DNA of 32,058 bases from NCBI GenBank assembly GCA_018057825.1, contig JAGPCY010000062.1, forward strand, positions 1 through 32,058, read 5' to 3'. Source of the DNA: Kofleriaceae bacterium. GTDB lineage: Bacteria > Myxococcota_A > Polyangia > Haliangiales > Haliangiaceae. Positions 1-29,931 of this stretch are shown here, piece by piece. The notes beneath the pieces were generated by a model. It was not told the DNA's origin, did no database searches, and saw only the letters and a program-made list of their open reading frames with translations. Position numbers and translations under genes: made by a program. Numbering within the stretch: the stretch's first letter is position 1; every line of letters starts with the position of its first letter.

Positions 1-739
1 GACCGGCGAGGAAGCGGTCGCGCAGGTAGCGGATCGCGCGCTCGACCTTGCCCTTGTCCTCGGGGCGCGCGACCGCGCACAGCCGCGGCTCGACCCGCAT
101 CGCGGCGCACAGCGCGAGCAGCGTCGGGTGGAACCGGACGGCGGTGCCGACGCGCTCGAGCACGACGGTCTTCGGGTTGTCGAACAGCCACTGCCGGGGC
201 GCGCCGCCGAGCGCGACCGACGCCCGCACCAGCGAGCGGCACAGCGAGTGGACCGACAGATCGAGGACGCACTCGGCCCACAGCGCGCGCGAGTGCGCCA
301 GCACCATCACGAAGAGCCAGAGCTGTCGCTCGCCACCAGGGAACGGCAGCTTGCCGACGAAGGCCCAGTCGACCTGCGCCTGCTCGCCGGGCAGCGTCTC
401 GGTGGTCAGGTAGACCTCGCGCCGCCGGCGAGGCCGGACGAGCGCGACGTGTTCGCGCAGCGTGCGGACGCCGCCCGTGAAGCCGCGCTCGCGGACCATG
501 TCGTAGAGCCGCGTCGCCAGCAGCTTCGGATAGCGGGGCAGCGTGTCGTCGATGAATTCGCGGTACGGGTCGATCATCCTGGCCTTTAGCTGCGACGGCG
601 TCTTCGCGACACCAAGCCCGAGCACGCGCTTGACGACGTCGGGATGCAGCGCGAGCTGGGTCGCGATCGTGCCGACCCGCCAGTGCTCGACGTAGTGCAG
701 GCGCACGACCTCCGCCTCGACCTCCGCTGTGGTCTTCAT
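1..739 (-). CDS. istA: IS21-family transposase IstA, C-terminus cut by window edge
   Basis: Reading the minus strand from ATG at 739 gives an open frame of 246 codons that leaves the window without a stop. It starts with a short helix-turn-helix-like region (residues about 8-45, with HPDVVKRVL) and continues into an rve-type integrase core. The three DDE residues are visible: D124 in QVDWAFVG, D187 in FDNPKTVV and E233 in KGKVERAI, with the spacing expected for IS21 IstA. In this family IstA does strand cleavage and transfer, and needs the helper ATPase IstB. IstB would lie beyond the left edge and is not seen. The gene follows the zinc-ribbon gene on the same strand after a 15-nt gap, so the two are probably co-transcribed. 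Only the 3' part is missing, and no frameshift is visible. Confidence 0.9.
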   Translation of the reverse strand, partial: MKTTAEVEAEVVRLHYVEHWRVGTIATQLALHPDVVKRVLGLGVAKTPSQLKARMIDPYREFIDDTLPRYPKLLATRLYDMVRERGFTGGVRTLREHVALVRPRRRREVYLTTETLPGEQAQVDWAFVGKLPFPGGERQLWLFVMVLAHSRALWAECVLDLSVHSLCRSLVRASVALGGAPRQWLFDNPKTVVLERVGTAVRFHPTLLALCAAMRVEPRLCAVARPEDKGKVERAIRYLRDRFLAG

Positions 740-754
740 CGTGCACCGCCAGGA

Positions 755-1357
755 TCACGCACCCGGTCCGTGACGCGGATGACCGCGGCTCCGCGGGCGG
801 GTTCGTCGACGCGGCCACGCCGTGACCACAAGCCCCGCGCGCTGGCAGTGCTGGCAGCGTGCGCCATCGCCGGGCGCCACGCGGCCCACGTCGCACGACG
901 CATGGACAGCGCGCGCCGGCGTGGCCAGGAGCGCCGCGGCAAGGCGGCTCGCTCGATCCCATCGTCGTCGACCCGGGGTGGGTTCGGGGTGGTCCTGGGG
1001 CGCAGCGTCATCGTCGGGTCTTTCGCCGACGGTCACGTGCACGTCGTCCATCGACGTGGGCGGATCCTCCGGCGGGCACACGCTGCCCGACGGGGCAACT
1101 TCGGCGGAACCTTGATCCCTCACGCGGTCGCGTGCGGCCCGGTGCCGGGCACGCCACGCCCGATTGTGGTCGCGGTTGTCGGCGCGGCCCTCCGGACTGC
1201 GCCGGTGACGCGCCTTGGCAGCTCGCACCTGCGCGTCACGCGCCGTCACCTGGTGCGCTGACACGCAGTAGACCTGGCCCCGGTAGCAGGCCCGACAGAT
1301 CGCAAACAGGCCCAGGCACTGGGCGCACCTCTCGAGGAGAAGGCCGACGTCGTCCAC
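755..1357 (-). CDS. Cys-rich zinc-ribbon-like protein associated with the IS21 element
   Basis: A 200-residue protein starting at GTG. Cysteines at 11, 14, 21, 24 and 31 (CAQC, CRAC, YC) look like a zinc-binding cluster. A basic Arg/Ala-rich stretch follows (about 40-80), and a second CQHC pair lies near residues 168-171. I recognise the general type from memory as a small protein found beside IS21 istA genes in myxobacteria and relatives, but its function is unknown to me. It ends 15 nt before istA on the same strand, which suggests a passenger or accessory of the element. Other strands and frames here are also open because of the high GC. This one is chosen for its clustered cysteines and its spacing to istA. 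The exact start is uncertain because no clear ribosome site precedes the GTG. Confidence 0.6.
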   Translation of the reverse strand: MDDVGLLLERCAQCLGLFAICRACYRGQVYCVSAHQVTARDAQVRAAKARHRRSPEGRADNRDHNRAWRARHRAARDRVRDQGSAEVAPSGSVCPPEDPPTSMDDVHVTVGERPDDDAAPQDHPEPTPGRRRWDRASRLAAALLATPARAVHASCDVGRVAPGDGARCQHCQRAGLVVTAWPRRRTRPRSRGHPRHGPGA

Positions 1358-1629
1358 GTTGAACGAGGACGGCGATCGAATACTTGCCCGCAGCGCCCAC
1401 CTCGCGCATCGTGCGCGAGCCGTCGTCCACGGCGAGGGTTCCGGCTGCCACCGGGCCCTCTTCTCATTTTCGGCGTCCTCGGTCCGCGGATCTACGGCGA
1501 GATCCTCGCTGGGTCGACTTTCTCGCCGACCGACCCGACCGTCAGATCACGACGTCTTCAGGCTGCCGTTAACACCTGTATGTCCCTCGCAACGGGCGAC
1601 GAGCCGCCCTGCGGAACGCGAGGACGACG

Positions 1630-1932
1630 ATGCGGACCACGAGCCAGAACACGCAGACGACGAAGACGGTGAGCCAGGGCGAGAGCCGCTACGGGACCGC
1701 CGAGCCGCAGATCGAGATCCGGCTCCCGAAGGGCACCAGCCACCGCCTGGTGAGCGCCGCGCTCCACAAGCTCGCCGCCGACGTCGAGCTGGCCACGCCC
1801 GAGCGGGAGCGCTGGATCGTCCAGACAGAGAGCTTCTACGACGCTCGCGGCCGCGTGTACCTCGAGCTGGCTGACGCGACGCCCGCCGAGGCCGAGCGGG
1901 GGATGGCGCTCCTCAAGAAGCTGGCGGGCTGA
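1630..1932 (+). CDS. Small hypothetical protein
   Basis: A 100-residue protein that I do not recognise. The first 25 residues are Thr/Gln/Ser-rich and probably disordered. Residues 27-100 look like a compact alpha/beta fold (IEIRLPKGTSHRLVSAALHKL, then a strand around RVYLELAD and a final helix). There is no signal peptide, membrane segment or metal ligand cluster. GAGG lies about 7 nt before the ATG. The codons have strongly G/C-biased third positions, and the frame is more protein-like than the overlapping minus-strand frame. It converges on the CDF transporter gene, with a hairpin between them. It lies just outside the probable IS21 end and could be part of the metal island or unrelated. 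Confidence 0.55.
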   Translation: MRTTSQNTQTTKTVSQGESRYGTAEPQIEIRLPKGTSHRLVSAALHKLAADVELATPERERWIVQTESFYDARGRVYLELADATPAEAERGMALLKKLAG

Positions 1933-1960
1933 GCCGCGGCGTCCGGGGCGTGGGCGAATA

Positions 1961-1981
1961 GCCGCTTCTCCCCAAAGCGGC
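1961..1981. terminator. Hairpin between convergent genes
   Basis: Perfect 7-bp arms GCCGCTT (1961-1967) and AAGCGGC (1975-1981) enclose a 7-nt loop. The hairpin sits between the stop of the small gene at 1932 and the stop of the CDF gene at 1991. Neither side has a strong T-tract, so it may be a Rho-independent-like or attenuating structure that serves both directions. Confidence 0.45.
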
Positions 1982-1990
1982 AATTCGACC

Positions 1991-2668
1991 TCAGCAGCAG
2001 GCGTTGCCGTTCCAGGCTTCCCGCCCTTCGCGCACAACGAGAGCCGCGATCACGAGCCCAGCGACCGGGTCGGCCCACCACCACCCGAGCAGGCCGTTGA
2101 GCCCGACGCCGACGAGCGCGGCGACGGACAGCCACCAGCATGCGGTCGTCTGGAACGCGTCGGCCTCAAGGGCTTCGCTCCCAAGCTCGCGAGCAAGCTT
2201 CCGCTTCGCCCGCGCCAGCCAGAGCATCACCGCGATCGAGAGCGCGAGGAGCGTCACGCCGACGGCGCTGAACGCCGGCTTGTCGCCGGTCCACAGGGTC
2301 TGTGCCGCGTCGAAAGTGATGTACGCCGCGAGGAGGAAGAGCGAGCCGGCGACGAGCCGGCGCGCGCGGTGTTCGATGGCCTCGAGCTGGTCGCCGCTCA
2401 TCCGATGGTCGCGCTCTGCGCGCAGGCGCCAGATCATCACGAGCGCCGAAGCGCACTCGACGAAGCTGTCGATGCCGAACCCGAGGATGGCGACGCTGCC
2501 GGCGAGGAGGGCAGCCGTCACCGCGACGATGCCCTCGACGACGTTCCAGCCGACGGTCAAGTACTCGAGCCGCAGCGCGCGGTTCACCGACTCCGGCCGG
2601 AGGTCGGGTTCCGACGCAGCGCAGGCCGTGTGGCATCCGCAGGACGTGGCTGGGGCAGTGGTCTCCAT
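1991..2668 (-). CDS. CDF-family cation efflux transporter with Cys-rich N-terminus
   Basis: A 225-residue inner-membrane protein of the cation diffusion facilitator superfamily, likely exporting Zn/Cd/Co-type divalent ions in exchange for protons. About six hydrophobic segments are visible. Acidic residues sit where CDF sites are expected: D67 and E71 in GIDSFVEC, D170 in LEADAFQTTAC and D200 in WWADPVAG. The usual cytoplasmic C-terminal domain is absent, so this is the short subtype. The tail ends in a CC pair, and the N-terminus carries CGCHTAC (C10, C12, H13, C16), a likely metal-binding handle. The start at 2668 is preferred over an upstream in-frame codon because GGAG lies about 5 nt before the ATG and the longer form has no conserved look. 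It diverges from the blaI-like gene across a shared palindromic operator. The exact substrate is inferred. Confidence 0.88.
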   Translation of the reverse strand: METTAPATSCGCHTACAASEPDLRPESVNRALRLEYLTVGWNVVEGIVAVTAALLAGSVAILGFGIDSFVECASALVMIWRLRAERDHRMSGDQLEAIEHRARRLVAGSLFLLAAYITFDAAQTLWTGDKPAFSAVGVTLLALSIAVMLWLARAKRKLARELGSEALEADAFQTTACWWLSVAALVGVGLNGLLGWWWADPVAGLVIAALVVREGREAWNGNACC

Positions 2669-2699
2669 GGTGCTCCGGTCCGGCCGCGACGAGTCGCAC

Positions 2700-2728
2700 T
2701 CGACATCGGCCACCTTCGCAGCTACTAT
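2700..2728 (+). promoter_or_regulatory. Sigma70-type promoter of the metal operon
   Basis: TCGACA (2700-2705, five of six matches to TTGACA) and TACTAT (2723-2728, four of six matches to TATAAT) are separated by exactly 17 bp. They lie 38 bp upstream of the blaI-like start. The -10 box is also the left arm of the palindromic operator, a classic layout for repression by occlusion. The promoter is predicted from sequence only. Confidence 0.6.
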
Positions 2729-2740
2729 AGCGGATAGTAG
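2722..2740. promoter_or_regulatory. Operator O1, probable BlaI-like repressor site
   Basis: A perfect palindrome, CTACTAT-agcgg-ATAGTAG, with 7-bp arms and a 5-bp centre. It lies between the divergent CDF and blaI-like genes and overlaps the predicted -10 box. BlaI/MecI/CopY repressors bind inverted repeats of TACA/TACT type, and the same palindrome recurs at 4246-4262 in the same operon. Together these make it the best candidate site for the adjacent repressor. Confidence 0.75.
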
Positions 2741-2766
2741 ATGAGAAGCCACCACAGGAGCCAGCA

Positions 2767-3183
2767 GTGACGTTCCGCCTTCGCTCAGGGAAGAAGGGCC
2801 TCGAACTACGTCTTCACGACCTCGAGGCGACCATCATGGACGTGGTGTGGAGCAAGCGACTCGCGTCCTTTGCCGTCGGCGACGTCCTGGCCATCCTCGA
2901 GAAGCAGCGGGACATCGCGTACACCACGGTGATGACGACCGTGACGCGTCTCTACGAGAAGGGGATCCTCGAGCGCGAGCGCGATGGGAAGCGCTACCTC
3001 TACTCCCCGAAGCTCGCGCGCGAGGAGTTCATGGAGTCCACCGCGCGCGAGGTGCTGGACGAAGCGGTCGGTGGCCACAAAGCGATGGTGATGCTTGCGG
3101 AGAAGGTCTCGGAGGCCTCGGCCGGTGAGCTCGACGACCTCGAGGCGCTCATCCAGAAGCGACGAGAGGAACTCGACGCGTGA
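2767..3183 (+). CDS. BlaI/MecI/CopY-family transcriptional repressor
   Basis: A 138-residue protein with the winged-helix N-terminus of the family (about residues 14-95), seen in LEATIMDVVWSK, then AYTTVMTTVTRLYEKGILERERDGKRYLY, and a C-terminal dimerisation helix region. Family members dimerise on inverted repeats and are inactivated either by a BlaR1/MecR1-type protease or, in CopY, by metal. The GTG start is set by AGGAG six nt upstream. The stop overlaps the start of the M56 protease gene (GTGA), giving the usual repressor/protease pair. Its neighbours are all metal-efflux genes, not a beta-lactamase. The sequence itself has no cysteines, so direct thiolate metal sensing of the CopY kind is unlikely, and release through the protease is more plausible. 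Confidence 0.92.
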   Translation: MTFRLRSGKKGLELRLHDLEATIMDVVWSKRLASFAVGDVLAILEKQRDIAYTTVMTTVTRLYEKGILERERDGKRYLYSPKLAREEFMESTAREVLDEAVGGHKAMVMLAEKVSEASAGELDDLEALIQKRREELDA

Positions 3184-4202
3184 TCGAGGCTACCTTCCCA
3201 CTGCTCGGCACGGCGTTCGTCGTGCTCATCGTGCTCCCCGCATTCGCGCTGCTCGCAAAGGCGGGGCTCGTGATGCTCGAGCGCGACGAGGTGGGGGGGC
3301 CGCTCCACGGACTCAACCTGCGCTACGTGCTCCTCACGGGATCGAGCGTGCTCCCGCTCGCGTGGCTTCTCTCAGCCGGTCTTCACCAAGCCGAAACGGG
3401 CAAGTCCGCGTTGGCGTGCCTATTCGATCACGACACGGCCGAGCTGTGTTTCGAGCCGGGCTTCTTCGCGCTCGTACTTTCGGTTGCAGTTCTCGCCTCG
3501 TCGCTTGGTGTGATCCAGCGGCATCGCGGGGTGCGATCGTCGTCGTCCGAAGTCGCCGTTGCACTTCTTCGCCGAGTCACACGCATCGTCGAGAGCGATT
3601 CGGGGCTTACGTGCCTCCGTCACCGCGTCGTCGTCACCGACGACAGGACCTTCGCGCTCGGCACGCACGGGTGGATCAAGCCTCGCGTGTTCCTCGGATC
3701 GGCTTTCGCCAGTGGTCTCTCCGACGAGATGCTCGCGAGCGCACTCGGTCATGAGGCCGAGCATGTCCGTGCCCTCGACCCGCTTCGCTACCTGATCCTT
3801 CAACTCGCGCTCGCCGTGAATCCGTTTGGGCGGTTCTTGCTCGAACCGCACGCGGCTCGATGGCAGGCCGCGCGCGAGGCTCACTGCGACCGCGAAGCGG
3901 TCATTCACGGCGCCGCTCCGCTTCCGCTAGCGGACGCGATCGTCAGGGCGGCCCGGCCCGGCGTTCGCGAAGCCGTCGCGCTGGGAGCGCGTGACACCGC
4001 CGTCCTCAAGTTCCGTATCGGAATGCTGCTCGCCTTCGCCGAGCGCGCGCCCGCGCGCTGCTGTCACCAAGGGCCCTCAGCCTTCCCGGTGGCGTTCGTC
4101 CTCCTGCTCATCGCGTTGCTGTTGCCGCACCAGACCGGCACTGCTGCGCTCGATGTGCTCCACACGGGCGCGGAGCACGCGCTCACCTACTTCTGGCGCT
4201 GA
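3180..4202 (+). CDS. M56-family (BlaR1-like) membrane metalloprotease without penicillin-binding domain
   Basis: A 340-residue inner-membrane protein. Predicted membrane segments lie at about 5-30, 47-68, 93-112 and 301-317. The zinc protease motif HEAEH is at 191-195 on the cytoplasmic side, with E233/D237 in REAHCDREA as the likely further ligand region. BlaR1 and MecR1 share this layout but carry a large extracellular transpeptidase-like sensor after the fourth membrane segment. Here only about 23 residues follow it. The loop expected to face the periplasm (69-92) holds H69, C80, D83, H84, D85 and C90. CCH at 294-296 precedes the last segment, and the tail has H317, H328 and H333. I infer that it senses metal and triggers removal of the BlaI-like repressor. 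The GTG start overlaps the repressor stop. Confidence 0.85.
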   Translation: MIEATFPLLGTAFVVLIVLPAFALLAKAGLVMLERDEVGGPLHGLNLRYVLLTGSSVLPLAWLLSAGLHQAETGKSALACLFDHDTAELCFEPGFFALVLSVAVLASSLGVIQRHRGVRSSSSEVAVALLRRVTRIVESDSGLTCLRHRVVVTDDRTFALGTHGWIKPRVFLGSAFASGLSDEMLASALGHEAEHVRALDPLRYLILQLALAVNPFGRFLLEPHAARWQAAREAHCDREAVIHGAAPLPLADAIVRAARPGVREAVALGARDTAVLKFRIGMLLAFAERAPARCCHQGPSAFPVAFVLLLIALLLPHQTGTAALDVLHTGAEHALTYFWR

Positions 4203-4210
4203 GGAACTCG

Positions 4211-5647
4211 ATGACCCGATCGCGACGTGCACGCTTGCCCTCAACTACTATCGCGCATAGTACCACCGCGGTCGCAGTAGCGTTCTCGCTGCTCGTCGGC
4301 GCCTGCGCTCACGCGCAGACGAGGACCGCAGCGGATGCTCGCGAGGCGCCGCCCCCGCATCTTCGAGGTCCTGCAGACGGCGGCTCGGTGAGCGGCCATG
4401 CCGAGCACACCGATCCCATCCCGGATCCTGCTGCGGGGTCCGAGGTCTCGCTTGGCGGCATCCTGGCGTTCGCTGATCAACGTTCGCCCGTCCTCACGGT
4501 CGCGCGAAGCACGCGCTCGCGCGCCGAAGCCGCACGCGTGGCTGCGTCGATCCTCCTCCCCACGAACCCCGAGGTGTCGGTCGCTGCCGGCCCGCGCTTC
4601 GGCATCTCCGGTACAGGGGTTGATGTCGACGTCACGCTGATGCAGCAGATCCAGATCGCGGGTGAACGCGGCCTGCGTATCGACGCCGCGGACGCCCTTC
4701 GGGACCTCACGGACGCCGAAATCGAACAGATGCGTTGGGCCGTGCACTGCGACGTGCATGCTGCTTTTCATCGGGCTCTCGTCGAGCAGGAGCGCGCCCG
4801 ACTGGCTGAGCGAGTGGTGACATTTCAGCAGGAGGTGCTGCGCGTCGTCGAGCGCCAGATCTCGGCGGGCGAGGCTGCGCCACTCGCGCTTCGACTGGCG
4901 CAGGCTGAGGTGGCCCAGTCGCAGCAGGTGCTCGTCGCGTCGCAGCAGTCGTTTCTCGCCTCGCGCATCCGTCTCGCGCAGCTTTCGGGATGGCCCGTTG
5001 CTACCCCGCCGATGCCAGCAGGGGCCGTCGACAGCCCGCGCGACCCGCCGCCACTCGATCGCCTGAGCGCGGTCGCTCGGGAACGCCTGCCAAGCCTTCG
5101 CGCTGGCGCCGCCCGGATTCGAGAGGCCGAAGCCCGATCAACGCTCGCCGATCGTGAGGCGTGGCCGCGTCCCTCGCTCGGCCTGCAGTATCGGCGTGAA
5201 GGCAATCCGACGAGCGAAGGCGCGTACGACATCGTGATGGGAGTCATCTCGATCCCCATTCCGAGCTTCCAGCTGAATCAAGGCGAGCGAGCGAGGGCGC
5301 GAGCAGACGTGACTGTCGCGGAGGCCGAGCTCGACGCTTCACGACGCCTGCTCGAGGGCCAGATCGCCGAAGCCCGCAGCGAGGTCGTCGCCGCCGCGGC
5401 CCGCACGCGTGCCTACGGTACTGAGATTCTCCCGCGCTTCGAGGAGAACCTTACGCTGCTGCGCCGCTCCTTCGAACTCGGCGAGATCGACATCCTCGCG
5501 CTCTCCACTGGGCGCGAACGCTTCCTGCGCATTCAGAGCGACGCGCTCGGCGCTCAGCAGGACTACTTCGTCGCGTTGGCCGGACTCGAGCGGGTCGTCG
5601 GCGTCGACCTCTGGCGCGATGACCACCACGAGGAGAGCACCCCATGA
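4211..5647 (+). CDS. czcC: Outer-membrane efflux factor, TolC/CzcC family lipoprotein
   Basis: A 478-residue protein. A basic n-region and a hydrophobic stretch lead to a lipobox, LVGAC, with C32 as the predicted acylated residue. The mature part has two repeats of long amphipathic helices typical of the OEP fold (about 85-265 and 290-465), including QISAGEAAPLALRLAQAEVAQSQ and SFELGEIDILALSTGRERFLRIQSD, the two equivalent 'GE...L' segments seen in TolC relatives. It would form the trimeric exit duct for the adaptor and RND pump encoded next. The start at 4211 is supported by GAGGAA 6 nt upstream and by a basic n-region, even though operator O2 lies inside codons 12-18. It begins 8 nt after the protease gene, and its stop overlaps the adaptor start (ATGA). 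Confidence 0.9.
   Translation: MTRSRRARLPSTTIAHSTTAVAVAFSLLVGACAHAQTRTAADAREAPPPHLRGPADGGSVSGHAEHTDPIPDPAAGSEVSLGGILAFADQRSPVLTVARSTRSRAEAARVAASILLPTNPEVSVAAGPRFGISGTGVDVDVTLMQQIQIAGERGLRIDAADALRDLTDAEIEQMRWAVHCDVHAAFHRALVEQERARLAERVVTFQQEVLRVVERQISAGEAAPLALRLAQAEVAQSQQVLVASQQSFLASRIRLAQLSGWPVATPPMPAGAVDSPRDPPPLDRLSAVARERLPSLRAGAARIREAEARSTLADREAWPRPSLGLQYRREGNPTSEGAYDIVMGVISIPIPSFQLNQGERARARADVTVAEAELDASRRLLEGQIAEARSEVVAAAARTRAYGTEILPRFEENLTLLRRSFELGEIDILALSTGRERFLRIQSDALGAQQDYFVALAGLERVVGVDLWRDDHHEESTP
4246..4262. promoter_or_regulatory. Operator O2 inside the start of the outer-membrane factor gene
   Basis: TACTAT-cgcgc-ATAGTA is a perfect palindrome that matches O1 in both arms and in the GCG core (consensus TACTAT-N-GCG-N-ATAGTA). 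It falls 35 nt after the ATG of the outer-membrane factor gene, inside codons 12-18. No good -35 box precedes it; the best is GACG around 4224-4227. It could act as a roadblock, a looping partner for O1, or the operator of a weak internal promoter. Confidence 0.65.
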
Positions 5648-6810
5648 ACCGCATGCTTCTAACTTCCTTCCTACTCGCCCTGCTGACCTCGGCCTGCAAC
5701 AAGGGCGGCGGCAATGATGGGCACGCCGAGGAAGGTGGGCACGCCGAAGAGGCCGGCCATCGCGAAGGCGAGCATGAGAATGAGGTGCATCTCTCGGCGG
5801 AGGCGCTCGAGCGTGCTGGGATCCGGCTCGCTGCTGCGGAACGTCGCGCGCTGACGGGTGGCGTCGCCATCCCCGCCGAAGTCCAGTTCGAGCCGAGCAG
5901 CACTGCACACGTCGGGCCGCTCGTTCCGGGACGCATCACCCGCGTCTCCGTCGCGCTCGGCGACAGGGTGCGACGCGGGCAGCTCCTCGGCGTGGTCGCG
6001 TCGAGCGACGTGTCGACGGCGCGCGCTCGCCTCGACCAGGCTCGCGCACGACTATCCGCAGCCGAATCCACGCTCCGTCGTCAGCAGCAGCTCTCGACGG
6101 AAGGTATTGGCGCGCAACGGTCGCTCATCGACGCGGAGGCGCAGGTCCGCGAGCTGCGAGCCGAAGTCGAAGGTTTGCGGCGTCAGCTCTCGGTGTTCGG
6201 GTCCGGGAGCGCGGGTGAACTCGCGCTTACCGCCCCCATCGACGGTGTCGTTGTCGCAGTTCACGGAACACTCGGGGAGACCGCGACGCCTGACCAACCC
6301 GTCTTCATCGTGACTGACCCGACGAAGGTCTGGGTGCGCGGCAACGTGCCGGAGCTGGAGCTTGCGCGGGTGCAGGTGGGCTCGGCTGCTGTCGTCCGCC
6401 TGCATGCGTTTCCCGACGCCACGATGCCCGGCACGATCACCTACGTCGCGCCCGCGCTCGACGAGCGCACGCGCTCGCTACCCGTTCGAGTGACGCTACA
6501 AGCGCCCGACGCACGCCTCCGCAGCGGCCTTTTTGGAAGCATCGAGCTGGTGGGAGGGAGCGTCGACGAGCGCGTGCTCGTCGTTCCGGCCGACGCGGTG
6601 GCGACACTCGACGGGCAGACGGTGGTGTTCGTCCCCGCTGACCAGCCGAACAGCTTCCGCCCTCAGCCCGTCGCGCTCGGCCGTCGCGCGGGCGGCTTCT
6701 TCGAGGTGCGCTCGGGCCTTGAGGAGGGAGCGCGTCTCGCCGTCAGCGGGGCCTTCACGCTGAAGAGTGCGCTGCGCAGCGGCGAGCTCTCTGAAGGTCA
6801 CGAGCACTGA
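5644..6810 (+). CDS. czcB: RND periplasmic adaptor (membrane fusion protein), CzcB/CusB family
   Basis: A 388-residue protein with a lipoprotein signal (LLTSAC, C18). A His/Glu-rich metal-binding linker spans about residues 25-50 (GHAEE, GHREGEHENEVH). The lipoyl halves (around 88-120 and 195-230: GPLVPGRITRVSV and APIDGVVVAVHG) flank a short helical hairpin, and beta-barrel and membrane-proximal domains follow. The tail ends in GHEH. The protein should bridge the RND pump and the outer-membrane duct, and may hand periplasmic metal ions to the pump. The His-rich N-terminus is the family feature of CzcB-like proteins. Translation is coupled to the upstream gene by a 4-bp overlap, with GAGGAG preceding the ATG. 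The pump gene starts 10 nt after its stop. Confidence 0.92.
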   Translation: MNRMLLTSFLLALLTSACNKGGGNDGHAEEGGHAEEAGHREGEHENEVHLSAEALERAGIRLAAAERRALTGGVAIPAEVQFEPSSTAHVGPLVPGRITRVSVALGDRVRRGQLLGVVASSDVSTARARLDQARARLSAAESTLRRQQQLSTEGIGAQRSLIDAEAQVRELRAEVEGLRRQLSVFGSGSAGELALTAPIDGVVVAVHGTLGETATPDQPVFIVTDPTKVWVRGNVPELELARVQVGSAAVVRLHAFPDATMPGTITYVAPALDERTRSLPVRVTLQAPDARLRSGLFGSIELVGGSVDERVLVVPADAVATLDGQTVVFVPADQPNSFRPQPVALGRRAGGFFEVRSGLEEGARLAVSGAFTLKSALRSGELSEGHEH

Positions 6811-6820
6811 GGGATACGCC

Positions 6821-9800
6821 ATGAAGAAGCTTCTCGAACTTTGTCTCAAGTCGCGGCTCCTCGTCTTCGCCTTCGTCGTCATCGTCGCGGCGGTCGGCGT
6901 GCGCAGCGCGCAGCAGCTGCCCATCGATGCCGTCCCGGACATCACCAACGTCCAGGTGCAGGTGCTGACGAACGTGCCGGCGCTCGGTCCGGTCGACGTC
7001 GAGCGCACGATCACCTTCCCGGTCGAGTCGTCCATGAGTGGGCTCCCCGGCGTCGAGGAGATCCGCAGCGTCTCGCGCTTTGGGCTCTCGGCAGTGACGA
7101 TCGTGTTCGAAGAGGGTACCGACCTGCTGCGCGCGCGACAGCTAATCTCAGAACGTCTCGTTCAGGCGCGTGAGCGTCTTCCCGCTGGTGCTTCGCCGGA
7201 GCTTGGCCCCCTCAGCTCGGGCCTCGGAGAGATCTTTCAGTTCGAGGTGCGTGCCGACAACATGTGCCCCGCTGGTCAGCCCGACACGGAGCAGTGCTAC
7301 ACGCCGATGGAGCTTCGCTCCGTGCTCGACTGGTTCGTAGCCTACGAGCTGCGCTCAGTGCCCGGTGTCGTCGAGGTCAACTCGTTCGGCGGCGAGCTGA
7401 AGACCTACGAGGTTGAGGTCCTCCCAGACCGGCTTCGGGCGCTGAACGTCTCGCTCAACGACCTCTTCGAGGCGATCGAACGCAACAACGCCACGGCGGG
7501 TGGTGGCTATCTCGTTCGCTCCGGCGAGCAAGTGCTCGTGCGTGGCGAGGGCCGGATCCAGAGCCTCGACGAGATCGGCGACGTGCTGATCGAGACGCGC
7601 GAGGACGGCGTGCCTGTGCGGGTCCGCGATGTCGCCCGCGTCCATTTGGCGCCCCTCATTCGCCAGGGCGCAGTCACGCGCGACGGGCGAGGCGAGGTGG
7701 TGACCGGTATTGTGATGATGCTCGTCGGCGCCAACGGCCGCGAGGTCGTGGAGAACGTGAAGGCGAAGATCACGCAGATCGCGCCTTCGCTTCCGCCCGG
7801 AGTGCGCATCGACGTCTTCTACGACCGCTCCGACCTCGTGAACCGGACCATCCACACCGTCGGGAAGAATCTCGCGGAGGGCGCGCTCTTCGTCATCGCG
7901 GTGCTGTTTCTGCTGCTCGGCAGCATTCGTGGCGGACTCATCGTCGCCGCAGCCATCCCGTTCGCGATGTTGGTCGCGTTCACCGCCATGAGGGCACTCG
8001 GGCTCTCGGGAAACCTTATGAGCCTCGGAGCCATCGACTTCGGCATCGTGGTCGACGGCTCCATCATCGTCGTGGAGAACGCCGTCGTGCACTTGGCGGC
8101 CGCAGCACGCGGGCAGAAACGCCCGATGACCTACGGCGAGGCGGCGGATGTGGTGCTCAACTCCACGCTCGACGTGCGCAAGGCCGCGCTCTTCGGCGAG
8201 GCAATCATCGTGATCGTCTACATCCCGATCCTCACCCTCGCGGGAGTCGAGGGGAAGATGTTCAAGCCGATGGCCATCACGGTGCTGTTCGCGCTGCTCG
8301 GTGCGTTCGTCGCCTCCCTGACTTTCGTGCCGGTGCTGGTGGCCACGTTCCTGCGGCAGCACACCGAGGAGAAGGAGCCGTTCATCGTGCGGCTTCTACA
8401 CCGAGTGTACCCGCGCCTCCTCGCCCCGCTGATGAAGGCCCCGAAGAAGGTCATCGCCGTGTCGCTCGTCTTGCTCGCGGCGAGTGGCGTCTTGGCCTCG
8501 CGCATGGGCGCAGAGTTCGTTCCGCGACTCGACGAAGGAGCCATCGCGATTCAGATCCTCCGACTGCCGAGCGTTTCGCTCGAGGAGAGCGTGCAGAGCG
8601 CGACGCGCTTCGAGCGGGTCATTCGCGAGTTTCCCGAGGTCGTCACCGTGGTATCGAAGACCGGGCGAGCGGAGATCGCGACTGACCCCATGGGCGTGGA
8701 GCTGTCGGACTGCATCGTCATTCTGAAGCCCCAGGACCAGTGGACGACGGCGCACACGCGCGAAGAGCTGATTCAACGCATGTCCGCGCGCTTCGCTGAC
8801 GCGCTGCCTGGGCTCGGGTTCTCGTTCTCTCAGCCCATCGAGTTGCGCATGGCCGAGCTGATCAGCGGCACGCGCTCGGACGTTGCGATCACGATCTACG
8901 GCGACGACCTCGCGACGCTCGAGCGGCTCAGCCTGCAGGTGCAAGGCGTCGTTCGCGGCATTCCCGGTGCGTCCGACGTACGTGGTGAGCAACTCGCCGG
9001 GTTGCCGACGCTGGAGGTGACCGTCGACCGCGCAGCCGCCTCACGCTACGGCATCTCGGTGCGCGATGCCCTCGACGCCATCGAAGCACTCGGCGGACGG
9101 AACGTTGGTGAGGTGTACGAGGGCGAGCGCCGCTTCCGCCTGCAGGTGCGGGTACCGTCGGGGCTGCGAGACGACATCGACCAAGTGCGAAACCTCCCCG
9201 TGAGCGGCCAGAGCGGCCCGCTGGTGCCGCTTGGACAGATCGCGAGCATCCAGATCGTGGACTCGCCAGCCAGCGTGAGCCGCGAGGCCGTTCGTCGGCG
9301 CACGAACGTGGAGGCCAACGTGCGCGGTCGCGACCTGGCGTCGTTCGTCGGTGAGGCGCAGGCGCGAGTGCGCGACCAGGTGCAGATGCCACCCGGCTAC
9401 GTCGTGCAATGGGGTGGGCAGTTCGAGAACCTGAGTGCCGCGTCGGAACGCCTCGCAGTGGCTGTCCCCGTCGCACTCGGGCTCATCTTCATCCTGCTCT
9501 ACATGGCGTTTGGTCAGCTCAAGCCCGCGCTGCTCATCTACCTCAACGTGCCGTTCGCCGCCGTGGGCGGCGTGTTCCTTCTGGCCCTGCGGGGCATGCC
9601 GTTCTCCATCAGCGCCGCGATCGGGTTCATCGCGCTCTTCGGCATCGCGGTGCTCAACGGCGTCGTGCTTCTCACGACTATCAAGAAGCTACGAGAGCAA
9701 GGCAAGTCACCGCTCGAAGCTGCGCAGGAAGGGGCGGAGTCTCGGTTGCGAGCCGTCGTGATGACGGCGACCGTTGCCGCCCTCGGCTTCATCCCCATGG

Positions 9801-10015
9801 CGCTCTCGTCCAGCGCCGGCGCGGAGGTGCAGCGGCCTCTCGCCACCGTGGTCATCGGTGGTCTCGTGAGTGCGACCTTCCTGACCTTGTTCGTCCTTCC
9901 GACCGTCTACGCTTTCGTCTACCGCAAGGAGCAACTGCCACCTCCGGACGGCGCGGCGGGCGGCCCGCCGCTCGAGGAGTCGAGCGGCATCGCGCTTGCC
10001 GGGGGACCGGCATGA
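6821..10015 (+). CDS. czcA: Heavy-metal efflux RND pump, CzcA type
   Basis: A 1064-residue inner-membrane proton antiporter of the HME-RND family, the usual length. Twelve membrane segments and two large periplasmic loops are apparent. The diagnostic motif in the fourth segment reads DFGIVVDGSIIVVEN (D406, D412, E419), which matches the divalent-cation (Zn/Co/Cd) class rather than the Cu/Ag CusA class. N-terminal PIDAVPDITNVQVQVLT is also typical. A Cys pair, C149 and C159, lies in a small insertion of the first periplasmic loop. The start at 6821 is chosen because MKKLLELCLKSRLLVF is the normal RND N-terminus and GAGGGA precedes it. A longer in-frame form would overlap the adaptor gene. The stop overlaps the next ATG (ATGA). 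Substrate class is inferred from the motif. Confidence 0.95.
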   Translation: MKKLLELCLKSRLLVFAFVVIVAAVGVRSAQQLPIDAVPDITNVQVQVLTNVPALGPVDVERTITFPVESSMSGLPGVEEIRSVSRFGLSAVTIVFEEGTDLLRARQLISERLVQARERLPAGASPELGPLSSGLGEIFQFEVRADNMCPAGQPDTEQCYTPMELRSVLDWFVAYELRSVPGVVEVNSFGGELKTYEVEVLPDRLRALNVSLNDLFEAIERNNATAGGGYLVRSGEQVLVRGEGRIQSLDEIGDVLIETREDGVPVRVRDVARVHLAPLIRQGAVTRDGRGEVVTGIVMMLVGANGREVVENVKAKITQIAPSLPPGVRIDVFYDRSDLVNRTIHTVGKNLAEGALFVIAVLFLLLGSIRGGLIVAAAIPFAMLVAFTAMRALGLSGNLMSLGAIDFGIVVDGSIIVVENAVVHLAAAARGQKRPMTYGEAADVVLNSTLDVRKAALFGEAIIVIVYIPILTLAGVEGKMFKPMAITVLFALLGAFVASLTFVPVLVATFLRQHTEEKEPFIVRLLHRVYPRLLAPLMKAPKKVIAVSLVLLAASGVLASRMGAEFVPRLDEGAIAIQILRLPSVSLEESVQSATRFERVIREFPEVVTVVSKTGRAEIATDPMGVELSDCIVILKPQDQWTTAHTREELIQRMSARFADALPGLGFSFSQPIELRMAELISGTRSDVAITIYGDDLATLERLSLQVQGVVRGIPGASDVRGEQLAGLPTLEVTVDRAAASRYGISVRDALDAIEALGGRNVGEVYEGERRFRLQVRVPSGLRDDIDQVRNLPVSGQSGPLVPLGQIASIQIVDSPASVSREAVRRRTNVEANVRGRDLASFVGEAQARVRDQVQMPPGYVVQWGGQFENLSAASERLAVAVPVALGLIFILLYMAFGQLKPALLIYLNVPFAAVGGVFLLALRGMPFSISAAIGFIALFGIAVLNGVVLLTTIKKLREQGKSPLEAAQEGAESRLRAVVMTATVAALGFIPMALSSSAGAEVQRPLATVVIGGLVSATFLTLFVLPTVYAFVYRKEQLPPPDGAAGGPPLEESSGIALAGGPA

Positions 10016-12459
10016 AGAAGCACAAGCTCGACCTCGAACTTGTTCTTCCCAACGAGGGCGCTGGCTGTGACGCCTGCGTTGCGCGCCTCGTCGACACTGT
10101 TGGTGCCGCGCATGGCATCGTGCGTGTTCACGTGGATCGCGATGATCCCCTGCGCCCTAAGCTGTGCCTCCACTACGACCCTACGTCGGTGCGTCTCGAG
10201 GAGATTGAGGCGCTCGTTCAGAGCGCGGGTGCCTCGCTGAAAGCACGCTACGAGCATCTGTCAGCGCCTGCGGTTGGTCTGCGACACGAACGGCAGGCGA
10301 GGCTTGTCGAGGGTGTATTCGCCAAGCAGCCGGGCGTGTGGCACGCGTCAGTGGCCTTCGGCTCGAGGCGCCTCTACGTCGAGTTCGATCCCGCCAAGAC
10401 CAATCGAGAGACGCTGTTCGCGGTCGCCGCCAAGGCAGGGATTGTCTCGTTCACTGAGACGGCGTCTCCGGCGGCGGCCGCTGCGGAGCACGACGAGCAC
10501 GAGCACGAGCATGGGGGACCGTTCGGCGAACGCTCCGAGCTCGTCTTCAGCCTCGCCTGCGGTGCGCTGACCGGCATCGGCTGGGGCCTCGAGAAGGCGG
10601 GCATCGCCCCGGCCATCACGACAAGCCTCTTCGTGCTTGCGTACGTCCTCGGGGCCTGGTTCACAGTCAAGGAGGTCGTCGTCGCGCTCCGTGCGCGCAA
10701 GTTCGAGATCGACTTCCTCATGCTGCTGGCGGCGATCGGCGCGGCCATCCTCGGCGAGTGGTTCGAGGGTGCTCTCCTGCTGTTTCTCTTCACCCTCGGT
10801 CACGGGCTCGAGGGCTACGCGATGCGCCGCGCCCGCAATGCCATCGGTGCGCTGGCGAAGCTCGTCCCGGAGACTGCGCTGCGCATCGATGACGACGGCC
10901 GCGAGGCAGAGGTGGGAGTTGCCGAGCTCGTGGTGGGTGATCGCATCTTGGTCAAACCCAACACGCGCATCCCAGCGGACGGGTTCGTTAGCGCTGGTTC
11001 GAGCAGCGTGAATCAAGCACCGATCACGGGAGAGAGCGTCCCCGTCGACAAGCGCTCCGTTCCTGATGTCGAGGCTGCTTTGGTCGCGCCCGAAGCGCTG
11101 GACGCGGAGCACCGCGTGTTCGCCGGCACCATCAGCGGGGCAGCGGCGCTCACCGCCGTGGTCACGAAGACCGCGAGCGAGAGCACCCTCGCTCGCGTCG
11201 TGAAGTTGGTCGCCGAGGCCGAGACGCAGAAGTCGCCAACGCAGCAGTTCACGGACCGCTTCGAGCGGGCGTTCGTCCCCATCATCCTCGTGTTCGTCGT
11301 AGGGCTACTCTTCGCGTGGGTCGTGGTCGACGAACCCTTCGCGCGCAGCTTCTATCGGGCCATGGCGGTACTCGTGGCCGCGAGCCCATGCGCACTCGCC
11401 ATCGCGACTCCAAGCGCCGTGCTGTCGGGCGTTGCGCGAGCGGCGCGGGGAGGCGTGCTCGTGAGGGGCGGCGCACACCTAGAGTCGCTCGGGTTGGTTC
11501 GCGCGATCGCCTTCGATAAGACCGGGACGCTCACCGAAGGAAAACCTCGTCTCACCGACGTGATCACCGTCGACGGTGCGCCGGAGGATGAGTTGCTCGC
11601 GGTGGCGGTGGCGGTCGAGAGGCGCTCCGACCATCCGCTCGCGAGCGCGATCGTGGAAGGCGTGGGTGCGCGGCGTCCTGGGCTCCCGGCGATGGAAGCC
11701 TCGGGTGTGGAGGCAGTGATCGGCTATGGAGTCCGCGCGACGGTGGGCGGTGCCGAGGTGGCGATCGGCAAGCCGGGCCTGTTCACGCGGGACGGTGCGC
11801 TGCCGCAGAGCGTCGCCGACGCCGTGCGCAAGCTGCAGAACGAGGGTCGTACGGTCATGGTCGTTCGATTGGGAGGCCGCTTCCTCGGCGTCCTAGGCGT
11901 GATGGATACCCCTCGTGAGAGTGCCCGGGCGGTTGTCACGGAGCTGCACGCGCTCGGCATCGAACAGACGATCATGCTGACCGGCGACAATCAGCGAGTG
12001 GCGGATGCCGTCGCGAAGCACGTCGGCATCCGCGTCGCACGCGGGGACCTGTTGCCGGAGCAGAAGGTCGCTGCCATCGCGGATCTGGCAAAGTCGAAGA
12101 GCCGAGTCGCGATGGTGGGTGACGGTGTGAACGACGCGCCGGCGATGGCCAACGCCACGGTGGGGATCGCGATGGGTGCGGGCGGGTCCGACGTCGCGCT
12201 CGAGACCGCTGACGTCGCACTGATGGCTGACGACCTCCGCGCGTTGCCCTTCGCCGTGGGGCTCAGCCGCGCCGCCCGCAGCATCATCCGGCAGAACCTC
12301 TGGGCGAGTCTCGGCATGGTGGCGTTCCTCGTCCCCGCGACCATCTTCGGCTTCGCCAAGATCGGCGTCGCGGTCGCGCTGCACGAAGGCTCGACCTTGC
12401 TCGTCGTCGCGAACGCGCTGAGGCTCCTGGCGTACGAACATCGACCTGGAGCAACATGA
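10012..12459 (+). CDS. P1B-4-type heavy-metal translocating P-type ATPase
   Basis: An 815-residue inner-membrane pump that exports divalent metal from the cytoplasm using ATP. The first HMA domain keeps its metal pair in GAGCDAC (C19, C22). A second HMA-like region (about 91-150) has lost its CxxC. A His-rich linker, HDEHEHEHGG, is at 160-169. The actuator motif TGES is at 339-342 and the phosphorylated D502 is in DKTGTLT. The hinge GDGVNDAPA follows. The membrane metal site is SPC (458-460) with HEGST near 791-795, the signature pair of the P1B-4 group (CzcP/CoaT-like; Zn, Cd, Co or Fe). It is translationally coupled to czcA and to the methyltransferase by 4-bp overlaps. It probably feeds periplasmic metal to the RND pump. 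Confidence 0.94.
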   Translation: MKKHKLDLELVLPNEGAGCDACVARLVDTVGAAHGIVRVHVDRDDPLRPKLCLHYDPTSVRLEEIEALVQSAGASLKARYEHLSAPAVGLRHERQARLVEGVFAKQPGVWHASVAFGSRRLYVEFDPAKTNRETLFAVAAKAGIVSFTETASPAAAAAEHDEHEHEHGGPFGERSELVFSLACGALTGIGWGLEKAGIAPAITTSLFVLAYVLGAWFTVKEVVVALRARKFEIDFLMLLAAIGAAILGEWFEGALLLFLFTLGHGLEGYAMRRARNAIGALAKLVPETALRIDDDGREAEVGVAELVVGDRILVKPNTRIPADGFVSAGSSSVNQAPITGESVPVDKRSVPDVEAALVAPEALDAEHRVFAGTISGAAALTAVVTKTASESTLARVVKLVAEAETQKSPTQQFTDRFERAFVPIILVFVVGLLFAWVVVDEPFARSFYRAMAVLVAASPCALAIATPSAVLSGVARAARGGVLVRGGAHLESLGLVRAIAFDKTGTLTEGKPRLTDVITVDGAPEDELLAVAVAVERRSDHPLASAIVEGVGARRPGLPAMEASGVEAVIGYGVRATVGGAEVAIGKPGLFTRDGALPQSVADAVRKLQNEGRTVMVVRLGGRFLGVLGVMDTPRESARAVVTELHALGIEQTIMLTGDNQRVADAVAKHVGIRVARGDLLPEQKVAAIADLAKSKSRVAMVGDGVNDAPAMANATVGIAMGAGGSDVALETADVALMADDLRALPFAVGLSRAARSIIRQNLWASLGMVAFLVPATIFGFAKIGVAVALHEGSTLLVVANALRLLAYEHRPGAT

Positions 12460-13082
12460 CGGACGGGGACCGCAGCTACTGGGACAAGCACGCGAAGAAC
12501 TACGACCGCTCGATGTCGCTCCTCGGACGGCCGATCCCCAGAATGGTCGAACTGGCCGGGGAAGCGACTCGCGGCCTGGGCCGCGTGCTCGAGGTCGCGG
12601 CCGGCACCGGCCTCGTCACACCCGCGCTCGCCGCTGGCGCAGAGGAGGTCATCGCCACCGACTACTCGGCGGCGATGGTCGCCGAGCTTGAGCGGCGCGT
12701 GCGGGGCGCCGGGGTGGCGAACGTGCGATGCGAGCAAGCGGACCTCTACGCCCTCCGCTTCGACCACGGATCGTTCGACGCGGTCGTCGCGGCGAACGTC
12801 CTCCACCTCGTGCCGGACCTGACCGGGGCCCTGGCTGCGCTTCGACGCGTGGTGAAGCCGGGCGGGCGGGTCATCGTTCCGACCTTCTGCCACGACGAAA
12901 CGGCCCTCTCGTGGGTCGTCTCGAGGGCGCTGGCCGTGACCGGCTTCCCGGGCCACCGGCGCTTCACGGCGAGGTCCCTCCGGCAGGCCGTCGAAGATGC
13001 CGGCGTTCGCGTGGCCCGGAGCGAAACGCTGCCAGGGCTCATCCCGATCGGCTACGTCGAGGGGACGTTCGGGCCGCGGTGA
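12456..13082 (+). CDS. Class I SAM-dependent methyltransferase (UbiE/Methyltransf_11 type)
   Basis: A 208-residue cytoplasmic enzyme with a Rossmann-like SAM fold. Motif I is LEVAAGTGLV (about 45-54), the acidic residue after the second strand is in IATDYSAAM, the DxF/DxV-type motif is DAVVAANVLHLV, and the post-motif loop is KPGGRVIVPTF. It resembles small-molecule methyltransferases, but the substrate cannot be read from sequence. The ATG overlaps the stop of the metal ATPase gene by 4 bp, so it is the last translationally coupled member of the metal operon. It might methylate a metal, a metalloid, a metallophore or a quinone. No arsenite-methyltransferase cysteine set is visible. Confidence 0.85.
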   Translation: MTDGDRSYWDKHAKNYDRSMSLLGRPIPRMVELAGEATRGLGRVLEVAAGTGLVTPALAAGAEEVIATDYSAAMVAELERRVRGAGVANVRCEQADLYALRFDHGSFDAVVAANVLHLVPDLTGALAALRRVVKPGGRVIVPTFCHDETALSWVVSRALAVTGFPGHRRFTARSLRQAVEDAGVRVARSETLPGLIPIGYVEGTFGPR

Positions 13083-13203
13083 CCGCGCGGCCGTTTCGCC
13101 CGTGTGGCGCCCACCGCCGCCGTGGCGCCGATCAGGCCGAACCTCGCTCAGGAGCCGCGCGAGCGGCCAACGTGCGCGCAGCAGTCGCGCTTGGCCCCGC
13201 ACC

Positions 13204-13223
13204 CGCGACGGGACGGCGCGAAC
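13204..13223 (+). repeat. Candidate left inverted repeat of the IS3 element
   Basis: CGCGACGGGACGGCGCGAAC read inward. Its partner, the complement of 14641-14660, shares the first 11 bases and the final GAAC. It lies 84 bp before orfA. Confidence 0.45.
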
Positions 13224-13307
13224 TGGAGAGAGCGTCCCGGCCTGTGTCCTGCCTCGGTCGGAACGTGACGGGCGAGCAGCCGTGCTACTCACACGGCGAG
13301 GAGCCCG

Positions 13308-13640
13308 ATGGTCATGTCGAAGAAGCGAACCCGCCGCAACTACACGATCGAGCAGAAGGTCGAGATCCTGCGCCGCCACCTGGTCGACAAGGTGCCGGTC
13401 TCGGACCTGTGCAACGAGCTGGGGATCCAGCCCAGCGTGTTCTACCAGTGGCAGCGCCAGGTCCACGACAACCTGGCCGGCGCGCTGATGCCACCGCCGG
13501 CGGTCGGGCCGAGCCAGCGCGAGAAGGAGCTCGCGGCCGAGAATGCGCGGCTCAAGGCCCAGCTCGCGAAGAAGGACGGCGTGATCGCCGAGATCGCGGC
13601 GGAGTACACGCAGCTAAAAAAAGAGCTTGGGGAGCCCTGA
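13308..13640 (+). CDS. IS3-family transposase OrfA (DNA-binding subunit)
   Basis: A 110-residue protein with an N-terminal helix-turn-helix of the HTH_Tnp_1 type (RNYTIEQKVEILRRHL through DLCNELGIQPSVFYQWQRQ) and a C-terminal leucine-zipper-like coil (about 72-105: KELAAENARLKAQLAKKDGVIAEIAAEYTQLKKEL). In this family OrfA binds the element ends and modulates transposition. GAGGAG precedes the ATG, and a second ATG two codons later is also possible. The A7 run near its end feeds ribosomes into orfB. Confidence 0.9.
   Translation: MVMSKKRTRRNYTIEQKVEILRRHLVDKVPVSDLCNELGIQPSVFYQWQRQVHDNLAGALMPPPAVGPSQREKELAAENARLKAQLAKKDGVIAEIAAEYTQLKKELGEP
13616..13622 (+). other. Programmed -1 ribosomal frameshift site
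   Basis: A run of seven A, read in the OrfA frame as A-AAA-AAA and followed by G. Slipping back one base here joins OrfA (..QLKK) to the OrfB frame (RAWGALTGRW..). OrfB has no good start codon of its own before its conserved region, so frameshifting is the likely way to make the OrfAB transposase, as in other IS3 elements. Confidence 0.75.
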
Positions 13641-14608
13641 CCGGCCGCTGGGTTCCCCATGACACGCGCGACACCGTCGTCGACTTCGTCGGCGAGTGGT
13701 CGGCCAAGACCGAGCTCCCGTCCGACCGCTTCGTCGCCTGGATCGGCATCGCCCGCGGCAAGTTCTTCGCTTGGCGCAAGCGCTACGGCAAGGCGAACGA
13801 GCACAACGCCCTGGTGCCGCGCGATCACTGGCTCACCGACGAGGAAAAACAGGCGATCATCGCCTTCCACGACAAGTTCCCGCTCGAGGGCTACCGCCGT
13901 CTGACCTTCATGATGATCGACGCTGACGTCGCCGCCGCCAGCGCGTCGAGCGTTTACCGCGTGCTCTCCCGGGCCGGTCTGCTCGACCGGTGGAACCCCA
14001 AGCCGACCAAGAAGGGCACCGGCTTCGTGCAGCCGCTTCGCGCACACGAGCATTGGCACATCGACGTCGCGTACCTGAATCTCGGCGGCACGTTCTACTA
14101 CTTGTGCTCGATCCTCGACGGTGCGAGCCGTGCGATCGTCCACTGGGAGATCCGCGAAGCGATGACCGAGGTCGACGTCGAGTGCATCTTGCTTCGCGCG
14201 CGCGAGCGGCACCCCGACGCGCGCCCGCGCGTGATCTCCGACAACGGACCGCAGTTCATCGCCAAGGACTTCAAGGAGTTCATCCGCCTCACCGGCATGA
14301 CCCACGTCCGCACCTCGCCGTACTACCCGCAGTCCAACGGCAAGATCGAGCGCTGGCACAAGACCATCAAGTCCGACGCGATCCGGCCCGGCCAGCCCGC
14401 CACTCTCGACGAGGCCCGCGCGCTCGTCGCCCGCTGGGTCGAGCACTACAACACCATCCGCCTGCACAGCGCGATCGGCTACATCACCCCGGCCGATTTC
14501 CTCGCCGGCCGTTCGGCTGCCATCTGGGCCGCCCGCGACCGCAAGCTCGAGGCCGCGCGCGAAGCCCGCGCTGCCCGCCGCGCCGCCGCCTACCAAGAGG
14601 CGGCATGA
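13622..14608 (+). CDS. IS3-family transposase OrfB (catalytic part of OrfAB)
   Basis: About 328 residues downstream of the frameshift point. An HTH_21-like segment (LEGYRRLTFMMIDADVAAASASSVYRVLSRAGLL) precedes the rve integrase core. The DDE triad is visible as HIDVAYL, SDNGPQF and SNGKIERWHK. The frame stays open through a basic, Ala/Arg-rich tail, so the enzyme looks intact. The start given is the frameshift point, not an initiation codon. Confidence 0.9.
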   Translation, partial: RAWGALTGRWVPHDTRDTVVDFVGEWSAKTELPSDRFVAWIGIARGKFFAWRKRYGKANEHNALVPRDHWLTDEEKQAIIAFHDKFPLEGYRRLTFMMIDADVAAASASSVYRVLSRAGLLDRWNPKPTKKGTGFVQPLRAHEHWHIDVAYLNLGGTFYYLCSILDGASRAIVHWEIREAMTEVDVECILLRARERHPDARPRVISDNGPQFIAKDFKEFIRLTGMTHVRTSPYYPQSNGKIERWHKTIKSDAIRPGQPATLDEARALVARWVEHYNTIRLHSAIGYITPADFLAGRSAAIWAARDRKLEAAREARAARRAAAYQEAA

Positions 14609-14640
14609 ATTCCTCTCCATCCACCTTCGATCTGCGTATC

Positions 14641-14660
14641 GTTCAACCTGTCCCGTCGCG
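14641..14660 (-). repeat. Candidate right inverted repeat of the IS3 element
   Basis: Read on the minus strand it begins CGCGACGGGACAGG and ends GAAC, pairing with 13204-13223. It lies 32 bp after the orfB stop. Confidence 0.45.
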
Positions 14661-14665
14661 TTCAC

Positions 14666-14830
14666 GCCGAACCTATACAGGAGCTTCTGGGGCCGATAAG
14701 CAGTCCCTACCGTTACGAGGGAATCTGGGGCCTCCCCATCCCTATCGGGCAGCTCATCCTCACCTACCTGCGTGCCCTGCTCGGTGACCCGGCCGAGGCA
14801 TCGCCGCCATCGTCGCCGCCCACCCCCTGA
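14666..14830 (+). pseudogene. Possible C-terminal remnant of an unrecognised gene
   Basis: A short frame ending at TGA (14828-14830) reads AEPIQELLGPISS, then YEGIWGLPIPIGQL and ILTYLRALLGDPAE. It looks protein-like but has no start codon, because it begins at the right end of the IS3 element. I cannot name it. It may be the 3' end of a gene cut by the insertion; no matching 5' part was recognised on the left side. Confidence 0.25.
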
Positions 14831-15091
14831 CGTTGTGCACGGTCTCGGTTCGGCGACGCAGCCGGCCGGCTTGCGAGGACGACGCGATCGGGCGCTGACT
14901 GCGGCGACGGCCGTGGTCCGCGGCGTCCGGGACGCGTATGGGTTCGTCGACGAGTCCGACCCGGCGCTTGGGCCGGACGCCGGATCGATGCCGGTGCCAT
15001 CGCACGCGGCGGCGGCGCGGCAGCCCGGGATGCTCACGGCCGCGGGGGAAGGCGCGTGCTGCTGCCGCCCGGCGGACCTCGCCAGGGCCCG
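14831..15091. other. Stretch without a supported gene
   Basis: GC-rich sequence between the IS3 region and the end of the kinase/pseudokinase gene. Several frames are open only because stop codons are rare at this GC. I see no conserved motif, RNA gene or clear hairpin. Confidence 0.4.

Positions 15092-28158: not shown

Positions 28159-29931
<1,773 letters not shown>

Follow-up and report, generated by a model that had tools for sequence, protein, structure and literature searches.

A probable metal-triggered BlaR1-like protease and BlaI-type repressor at a toxic-metal pump locus of a soil bacterium

Organization and distribution of the locus

The window, that is, the whole stretch of 32,058 nucleotides analysed, carries a repressor gene and a protease gene at the head of a run of exporter genes. 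The blaI gene (positions 2767 to 3183, plus strand) encodes a BlaI/MecI-type repressor of 138 amino acids, starts with GTG with an AGGAG six bases upstream, and overlaps by 4 bases at its stop the start of a gene for an M56 membrane metalloprotease of 340 amino acids without a penicillin-binding domain (3180 to 4202, plus strand). Divergent from blaI lies the gene for a CDF-family cation exporter (1991 to 2668, minus strand; Pfam Cation_efflux, 58.2 bits), whose frame opens at 2755 and whose likely start is the ATG at 2668, a start kept in the loci L010, L011 and L018. Downstream of the protease gene, all on the plus strand, are genes for a CzcC-like outer-membrane efflux protein (4211 to 5647; Pfam OEP, 128.7 bits), a CzcB-like periplasmic adaptor (5644 to 6810), a CzcA/ZneA-like heavy-metal RND pump (6821 to 10015), a P1B-type ATPase with SPC and HEGST motifs (10012 to 12459) and a methyltransferase (12456 to 13082) that also closes the operon in several orthologous loci. 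The CzcA protein scored 1238.6 bits against TIGR00914, the CusA/CzcA family model, which is above the cut-off of 701.45 and places it among the CusA/CzcA heavy-metal RND pumps; its TM4 motif is DFGIVVDGSIIVVEN and its nearest solved relative is ZneA. Since a ZneA-like CzcA, a CDF exporter and an SPC-type ATPase occur in one locus, the exported metals are, judging by these families, most likely divalent (Zn, Cd or Co). The initial annotation had described all surrounding genes as metal exporters, which holds for CDF, CzcC, CzcB, CzcA and the P1B ATPase but not for the methyltransferase and an insertion-sequence-like frame. This frame (12728 to 14608, plus strand), which contains an rve integrase core and follows the operon directly, suggests an insertion sequence. 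Elsewhere in the window, a frame of 1984 amino acids (24265 to 30219, minus strand) combines a Ser/Thr kinase, an nSTAND1 NTPase and a formylglycine-generating-enzyme-like domain.

Related loci were sampled as 13 close loci and through a survey of the phylum, in which 57 of 379 genomes gave a match, leading to 40 larger regions. The order blaI-M56-czc was kept in 13/13 close loci, and blaI-M56-czcC-czcB-czcA was found again in most of the 40 larger regions. Outside Myxococcota, a protein of the window type was present in 3/193 genomes of one phylum and 1/395 of another, with two further weak matches, and its occurrence there is therefore sporadic. No match indicating plasmid spread was found among 72,556 plasmids. 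In L012 (positions 1 to 8600 of a contig titled Alphaproteobacteria), a block of S8-protease-like, AAA and McrC-like frames, as read by eye, seems to interrupt the divergent CDF gene some tens of codons from its start; the operon of this contig is close to the myxobacterial ones, and therefore either transfer or mis-binning may account for it.

The BlaI-type repressor

The repressor belongs to the BlaI/MecI family, as it matched Penicillinase_R (PF03965) with 95.5 bits against a cut-off of 22.6, and MecI/BlaI crystal sequences matched it at E about 1e-11. The best NCBIfam model was CopY/TcrY (TIGR02698), with 66.1 bits, under its cut-off of 121.95. The protein has no Cys, as the initial annotation had noted, and no C-terminal CxC, the metal motif of CopY/TcrY; the few Cys found in its orthologues are not conserved. 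A role as a CopY-like direct metal sensor was rejected on account of the missing Cys. Two histidines, H17 and H104, are invariant in the BlaI alignment.

The P1' Phe is nearly invariant among known BlaI cleavage sites (PMC9834060). It is not kept in the window BlaI, which in this narrow sense departs from the BlaI of BlaR1 systems: the cleavage-site stretch reads MLAEK where known BlaI has NFVEK, with L110 or A111 at the site. The nearest equivalent of the Phe is L110, which was found to be invariant in 13 close BlaI sequences.

Domains and fold of the M56 protease

The protease carries HEAEH at residues 191-195, and E233-A-H-C236-D237 completes an HExxH + E-x2-C-D gluzincin motif; H191, E192, H195, E233, C236 and D237 are invariant in 14 close M56 proteins. 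The window protein matched Pfam PF05569 (M56) weakly, with 20.3 bits against a gathering cut-off of 31, which is a library threshold and not a biological feature, and 14/14 close orthologues matched the same model at E 0.01 or better. No other Pfam domain was found in the protein, the penicillin-binding domain being absent, and only 24 residues follow the last membrane segment, where BlaR1 and MecR1 have a sensor domain. The initial annotation had proposed a BlaI-type repressor overlapping an M56 protease that lacks the penicillin-binding domain of BlaR1, and both parts of this proposal were borne out by the domain matches, the motif and the 4-base overlap.

The AlphaFold2 model of the protease had a mean pLDDT of 74.5 and a pTM of 0.74, with pLDDT below 50 at residues 76-91 (loop) and 316-322 (tail). 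Four hydrophobic segments and helices are seen in the sequence and the model; the predicted membrane orientation is N-out/C-out, as in BlaR1. BlaR1 was the best solved relative of the model in Foldseek at E 0.02, a value that is weak by itself, and BlaR1 8exs was the top match in VIA-align (Z 12.7, 5.5 A rmsd over 229 residues), so that in the fold search BlaR1 came ahead of other gluzincins (Ste24p and BepA). A sequence-profile search against solved structures gave no match for M56.

Promoter and predicted operators

Two perfect predicted operators of the form TACTATnnnnnATAGTA, overlooked in the initial annotation, are present in the window at 2723-2739 (operator 1, TACTATAGCGGATAGTA) and 4246-4262 (operator 2, TACTATCGCGCATAGTA). 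The pattern was first spotted by eye upstream of blaI. Its chance expectation is 0.09 matches in the window even at three mismatches; at one mismatch or fewer, the 8.9-Mb genome holds no copies but these two, and none of the reversed pattern that served as a control. Both operators were present within two mismatches in 13/13 close loci from other genomes.

The left half of operator 1 is the -10 box of the blaI promoter, and a -35 box, TCGACA (2700 to 2705, plus strand), lies 17 bases ahead of TACTAT. Either TCGACA or TTGACA was found exactly 17 bases before TACTAT in 11/14 loci (5-6/6 match to TTGACA), whereas random positions scoring at least 5 against TTGACA amounted to 0.3%. Operator 2 lies within the first 18 codons of czcC in the window and within the czcC frame in 33/40 loci examined. 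No good -35 box was found at 16-18 bases from operator 2 in any of 14 close loci, and a promoter at this position was thus ruled out. We infer that BlaI binds both palindromes, stopping transcription before it starts at operator 1 and during elongation at operator 2, where the lack of a -35 box points to a probable role as a roadblock. Among the 33 loci with the operator embedded in czcC, those read by eye apparently have it in a constant reading phase; one of the other phases would give an in-frame TAG stop.

Conserved Cys and His residues in the periplasmic loop and tail

The conservation of Cys and His residues was followed in a non-redundant set of 31 M56 proteins with identities as low as 25%. 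As expected, the active-site residues H191, H195 and C236 were fixed. Outside the active site, all conserved Cys and His were found in two stretches predicted to face the periplasm. The TM2-TM3 loop (codons 67-92, positions 3378 to 3455, plus strand), at the position of BlaR1 EL1 and immediately before TM3, holds H69, E72, C80, H84 and C90, which were kept in 30, 29, 29, 27 and 27 of the 31 proteins, respectively. The C-terminal tail after TM4 (codons 317-340, positions 4128 to 4199, plus strand) holds H317, H328, D/E325 and D/E332 and lies next to P316; P316, H317 and H328 were kept in all 31 proteins and E/D332 in 30. The tail histidines are located where the BlaR1 sensor domain would attach. 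One or more of the loop ligands were lost in the single members L054, L074, L078-L080 and L082.

The initial annotation had named H69, C80, H84 and C90 together with two Asp, and the four Cys and His were found at these positions and kept in 27-30/31 orthologues; the loop did not prove absent where orthologues share this gene order. D83, one of the two Asp, was kept as D/E in 25/31, but the other, D85, was not conserved. It had further pointed to Cys and His flanking the last membrane segment, which stood for H317 and H328 after the segment (31/31) but not for C294, C295 and H296. The residues that varied among the 31 proteins were H43, H115, C145, H148, H163, H224, H235, H243, C294, C295, H296 and H333. 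The C294/C295/H296 cluster was ruled out as a metal-sensing site and H43, C145, H163, H235 and H243 were discarded as ligands, since none is conserved; C236 was set aside because it is part of the M56 active-site motif.

Association of the loop with heavy-metal RND pumps

The association of loop and pump was counted in a sample in which M56 genes from 193 genomes of the class were drawn by the Pfam protease model and not by the loop, and the count was limited to genes with enough flanking DNA. A Cys/His-rich loop was present in 15/15 M56 proteins encoded beside a heavy-metal RND pump. In contrast, it was present in 0/40 of those without a pump (Fisher P 8e-14, a value that overstates independence because the M56 genes share ancestry and the 55 genes do not represent as many independent events). 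In four further M56 genes with a Cys/His loop, the contig ended within about 2 kb downstream, before any pump could show.

In the protease-domain tree, the window type (support 100/95) and a second metal type (97/89) each formed a group of their own, as did most M56 proteins without a pump (96/94), and the labels could be placed with only seven changes. The second loop type is marked by DHC-x2-H-x2-(H)-x-H-L-C-x2-H in the loop itself and by HH-x2-E in the tail. The pumps next to it are also of the CusA/CzcA family, with [GT]xIAxGxLVDDAxIDVEN replacing DFGxxxDG, so that the loop type goes with the pump subclass; several second-type loci also carry paired operators of the same form.

Some loci are of interest in their own right. 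Both metal-type BlaI-M56-pump systems, differing in loop and in RND subclass, stand in tandem on one contig in L164 (positions 4837 to 14903; genome G437, of the window's genus; the same locus as L007). In L129 (G086), the M56 falls inside the group of the second loop type, yet it is accompanied by a DFG-type pump and has a rewritten Cys-rich loop, CLHHLAFGLEDGCLAHGRPNFFFC, which is possibly a natural swap. An exception was L086 (G230), where two tandem BlaI-M56 pairs with no Cys or His in the loop lie beside czcCBA. Short M56 proteins (313-350 amino acids) paired with BlaI were found in L119 and L122-L127; they lack both a sensor domain and a Cys/His loop and are not accompanied by a heavy-metal pump, and a missing sensor domain was thus rejected as a sufficient mark of metal sensing.

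Interpretation of the switch and weighing of alternatives

Taken together, the comparisons point to a locus at which a metal-triggered BlaR1-like protease probably clears BlaI from toxic-metal pump genes. Metal rather than an antibiotic is the probable trigger because the penicillin-binding part is gone and conserved residues of a metal-binding type lie outside the membrane. The metal-triggered M56 switch put forward in the initial annotation gained support from this comparison at the level of sequence, with the four loop residues kept in 27-30 of 31 orthologues and Cys/His-rich loops tracking heavy-metal RND pumps. In S. aureus BlaR1, which has an N-out/C-out topology, the active site of the sensor holds EL1, the loop of residues 56-96 that joins helices 2 and 3. 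Displacing this loop, where signalling starts, shifts helix 3 together with the protease, which becomes active in the cytosol and cleaves BlaI directly (PMC9834060). For the window, the proposal would run as follows. At rest, BlaI on operator 1 would cover the -10 box of the blaI-M56 promoter, near the divergent CDF gene, and BlaI on operator 2 would probably act as a roadblock to read-through into czcC. Excess periplasmic metal, most likely Zn, Cd or Co, would bind H69, C80, H84 and C90 of the loop and H317 and H328 of the tail, and this metal bridge may stand in for the contact of loop and sensor in BlaR1, activating the protease. By analogy with the family, the activated M56 would then cleave BlaI, the probable site being L110 or a position adjoining it. 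With BlaI cleared, the CDF, CzcCBA and P1B exporters would be made.

The same proteolytic switch might operate with the conserved outside residues holding a structural zinc or joined in a C80-C90 disulfide, the trigger being redox or envelope stress. Two conserved Cys in an oxidising compartment could indeed pair, a structural site would also be expected to be conserved, and the loss of loop ligands in single members fits this reading. We nevertheless consider it unlikely, as loops spelled differently but equally rich in Cys and His were confined, within the sample, to M56 genes neighbouring pumps, and metal exporters make up most genes of the locus. It is considerably less likely that BlaI itself senses metal as CopY does, with M56 merely tuning repressor turnover: CopY/TcrY was the best NCBIfam profile, below its cut-off, and H17 and H104 are invariant, but neither Cys nor a C-terminal CxC is present, the Cys of orthologues are not conserved, and M56 was kept in every collected locus, a weak point as the loci were found through M56. 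The least credible reading, and a very improbable one, is that M56 receives a cell-wall or beta-lactam signal, the metal pumps being accidental cargo. The history of the family favors it, BlaR1 and MecR1 being sensors of beta-lactams; against it, the sensor domain is absent, and pumps and operators stay with M56 down to 25% protein identity. The recurrence of gene order, loop and operators in dozens of loci is more than chance would give, and a metal-triggered M56 is the reading we prefer.

A broader proposal, to which we give an even chance, is that a family of BlaR1-type proteases exists in myxobacteria and related bacteria whose signalling loop itself receives the metal, is linked by a bridge to the short C-terminal tail and has a chemistry suited to the pump under its control. 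Loops of at least two types would go with two subclasses of pump, and a swap between them could alter which metal is sensed.

Comparison with known systems

BlaR1 is known as a receptor for beta-lactam resistance. The window pair resembles BlaI/BlaR1 and MecI/MecR1 of Staphylococcus in being a repressor-protease pair with an M56 gluzincin motif, four predicted membrane helices, a fold match at the Z score given above and putative dyad operators. Unlike BlaR1 and MecR1, the window M56 has a Cys/His signalling loop and a 24-residue tail instead of a penicillin-binding sensor domain, and unlike the BlaI/MecI systems, the presumed target genes encode metal pumps, its BlaI is without the P1' Phe, and its predicted operator is TACTATnnnnnATAGTA where those systems have TACAnnTGTA. 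The sensor appears to be built into the loop that relays the signal in BlaR1.

A metal-responsive switch of the BlaI/BlaR1 type is not unprecedented, as PetR/PetP is already known for copper: in the cyanobacterium Synechocystis, copper is reported to make a BlaR1-like protease remove a BlaI-type regulator (PMC7896320, PMC12292863). At the level of protein families, the window likewise has a BlaI-type regulator and a BlaR1-like protease. In contrast to the window locus, PetR/PetP senses copper and controls plastocyanin and cytochrome c6, with PetR both repressing and activating; petE/petJ linkage, a feature of PetR/PetP, was not found in the window, where the neighbours are metal exporters. The window pair would be a metal-export counterpart to PetR/PetP; no other pair of this type that responds to metal turned up in the literature searched. 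No report of a BlaI-M56-type pair for metal exporters or from Myxococcota was found in a search that missed most subscription journals and is therefore weak evidence.

CopY binds copper directly via a C-terminal CxC (PMC7253601). The window BlaI shares with CopY/TcrY the repressor fold family and the presumed control of metal exporters, and unlike them it is free of Cys and paired with a protease. Pumps of the Czc type are regulated by two-component systems and ECF sigma factors, with periplasmic metal sensing. The pumps in the window are of the same kind, but the regulator is a repressor-protease pair, which would give Czc pumps a regulator other than a two-component system or an ECF sigma factor. 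The loci suggest that the BlaR1-type protease-repressor chassis commonly serves metals in Myxococcota, and they represent a small natural experiment on the activation of M56 receptors and a testable route to altering the signal that is sensed.
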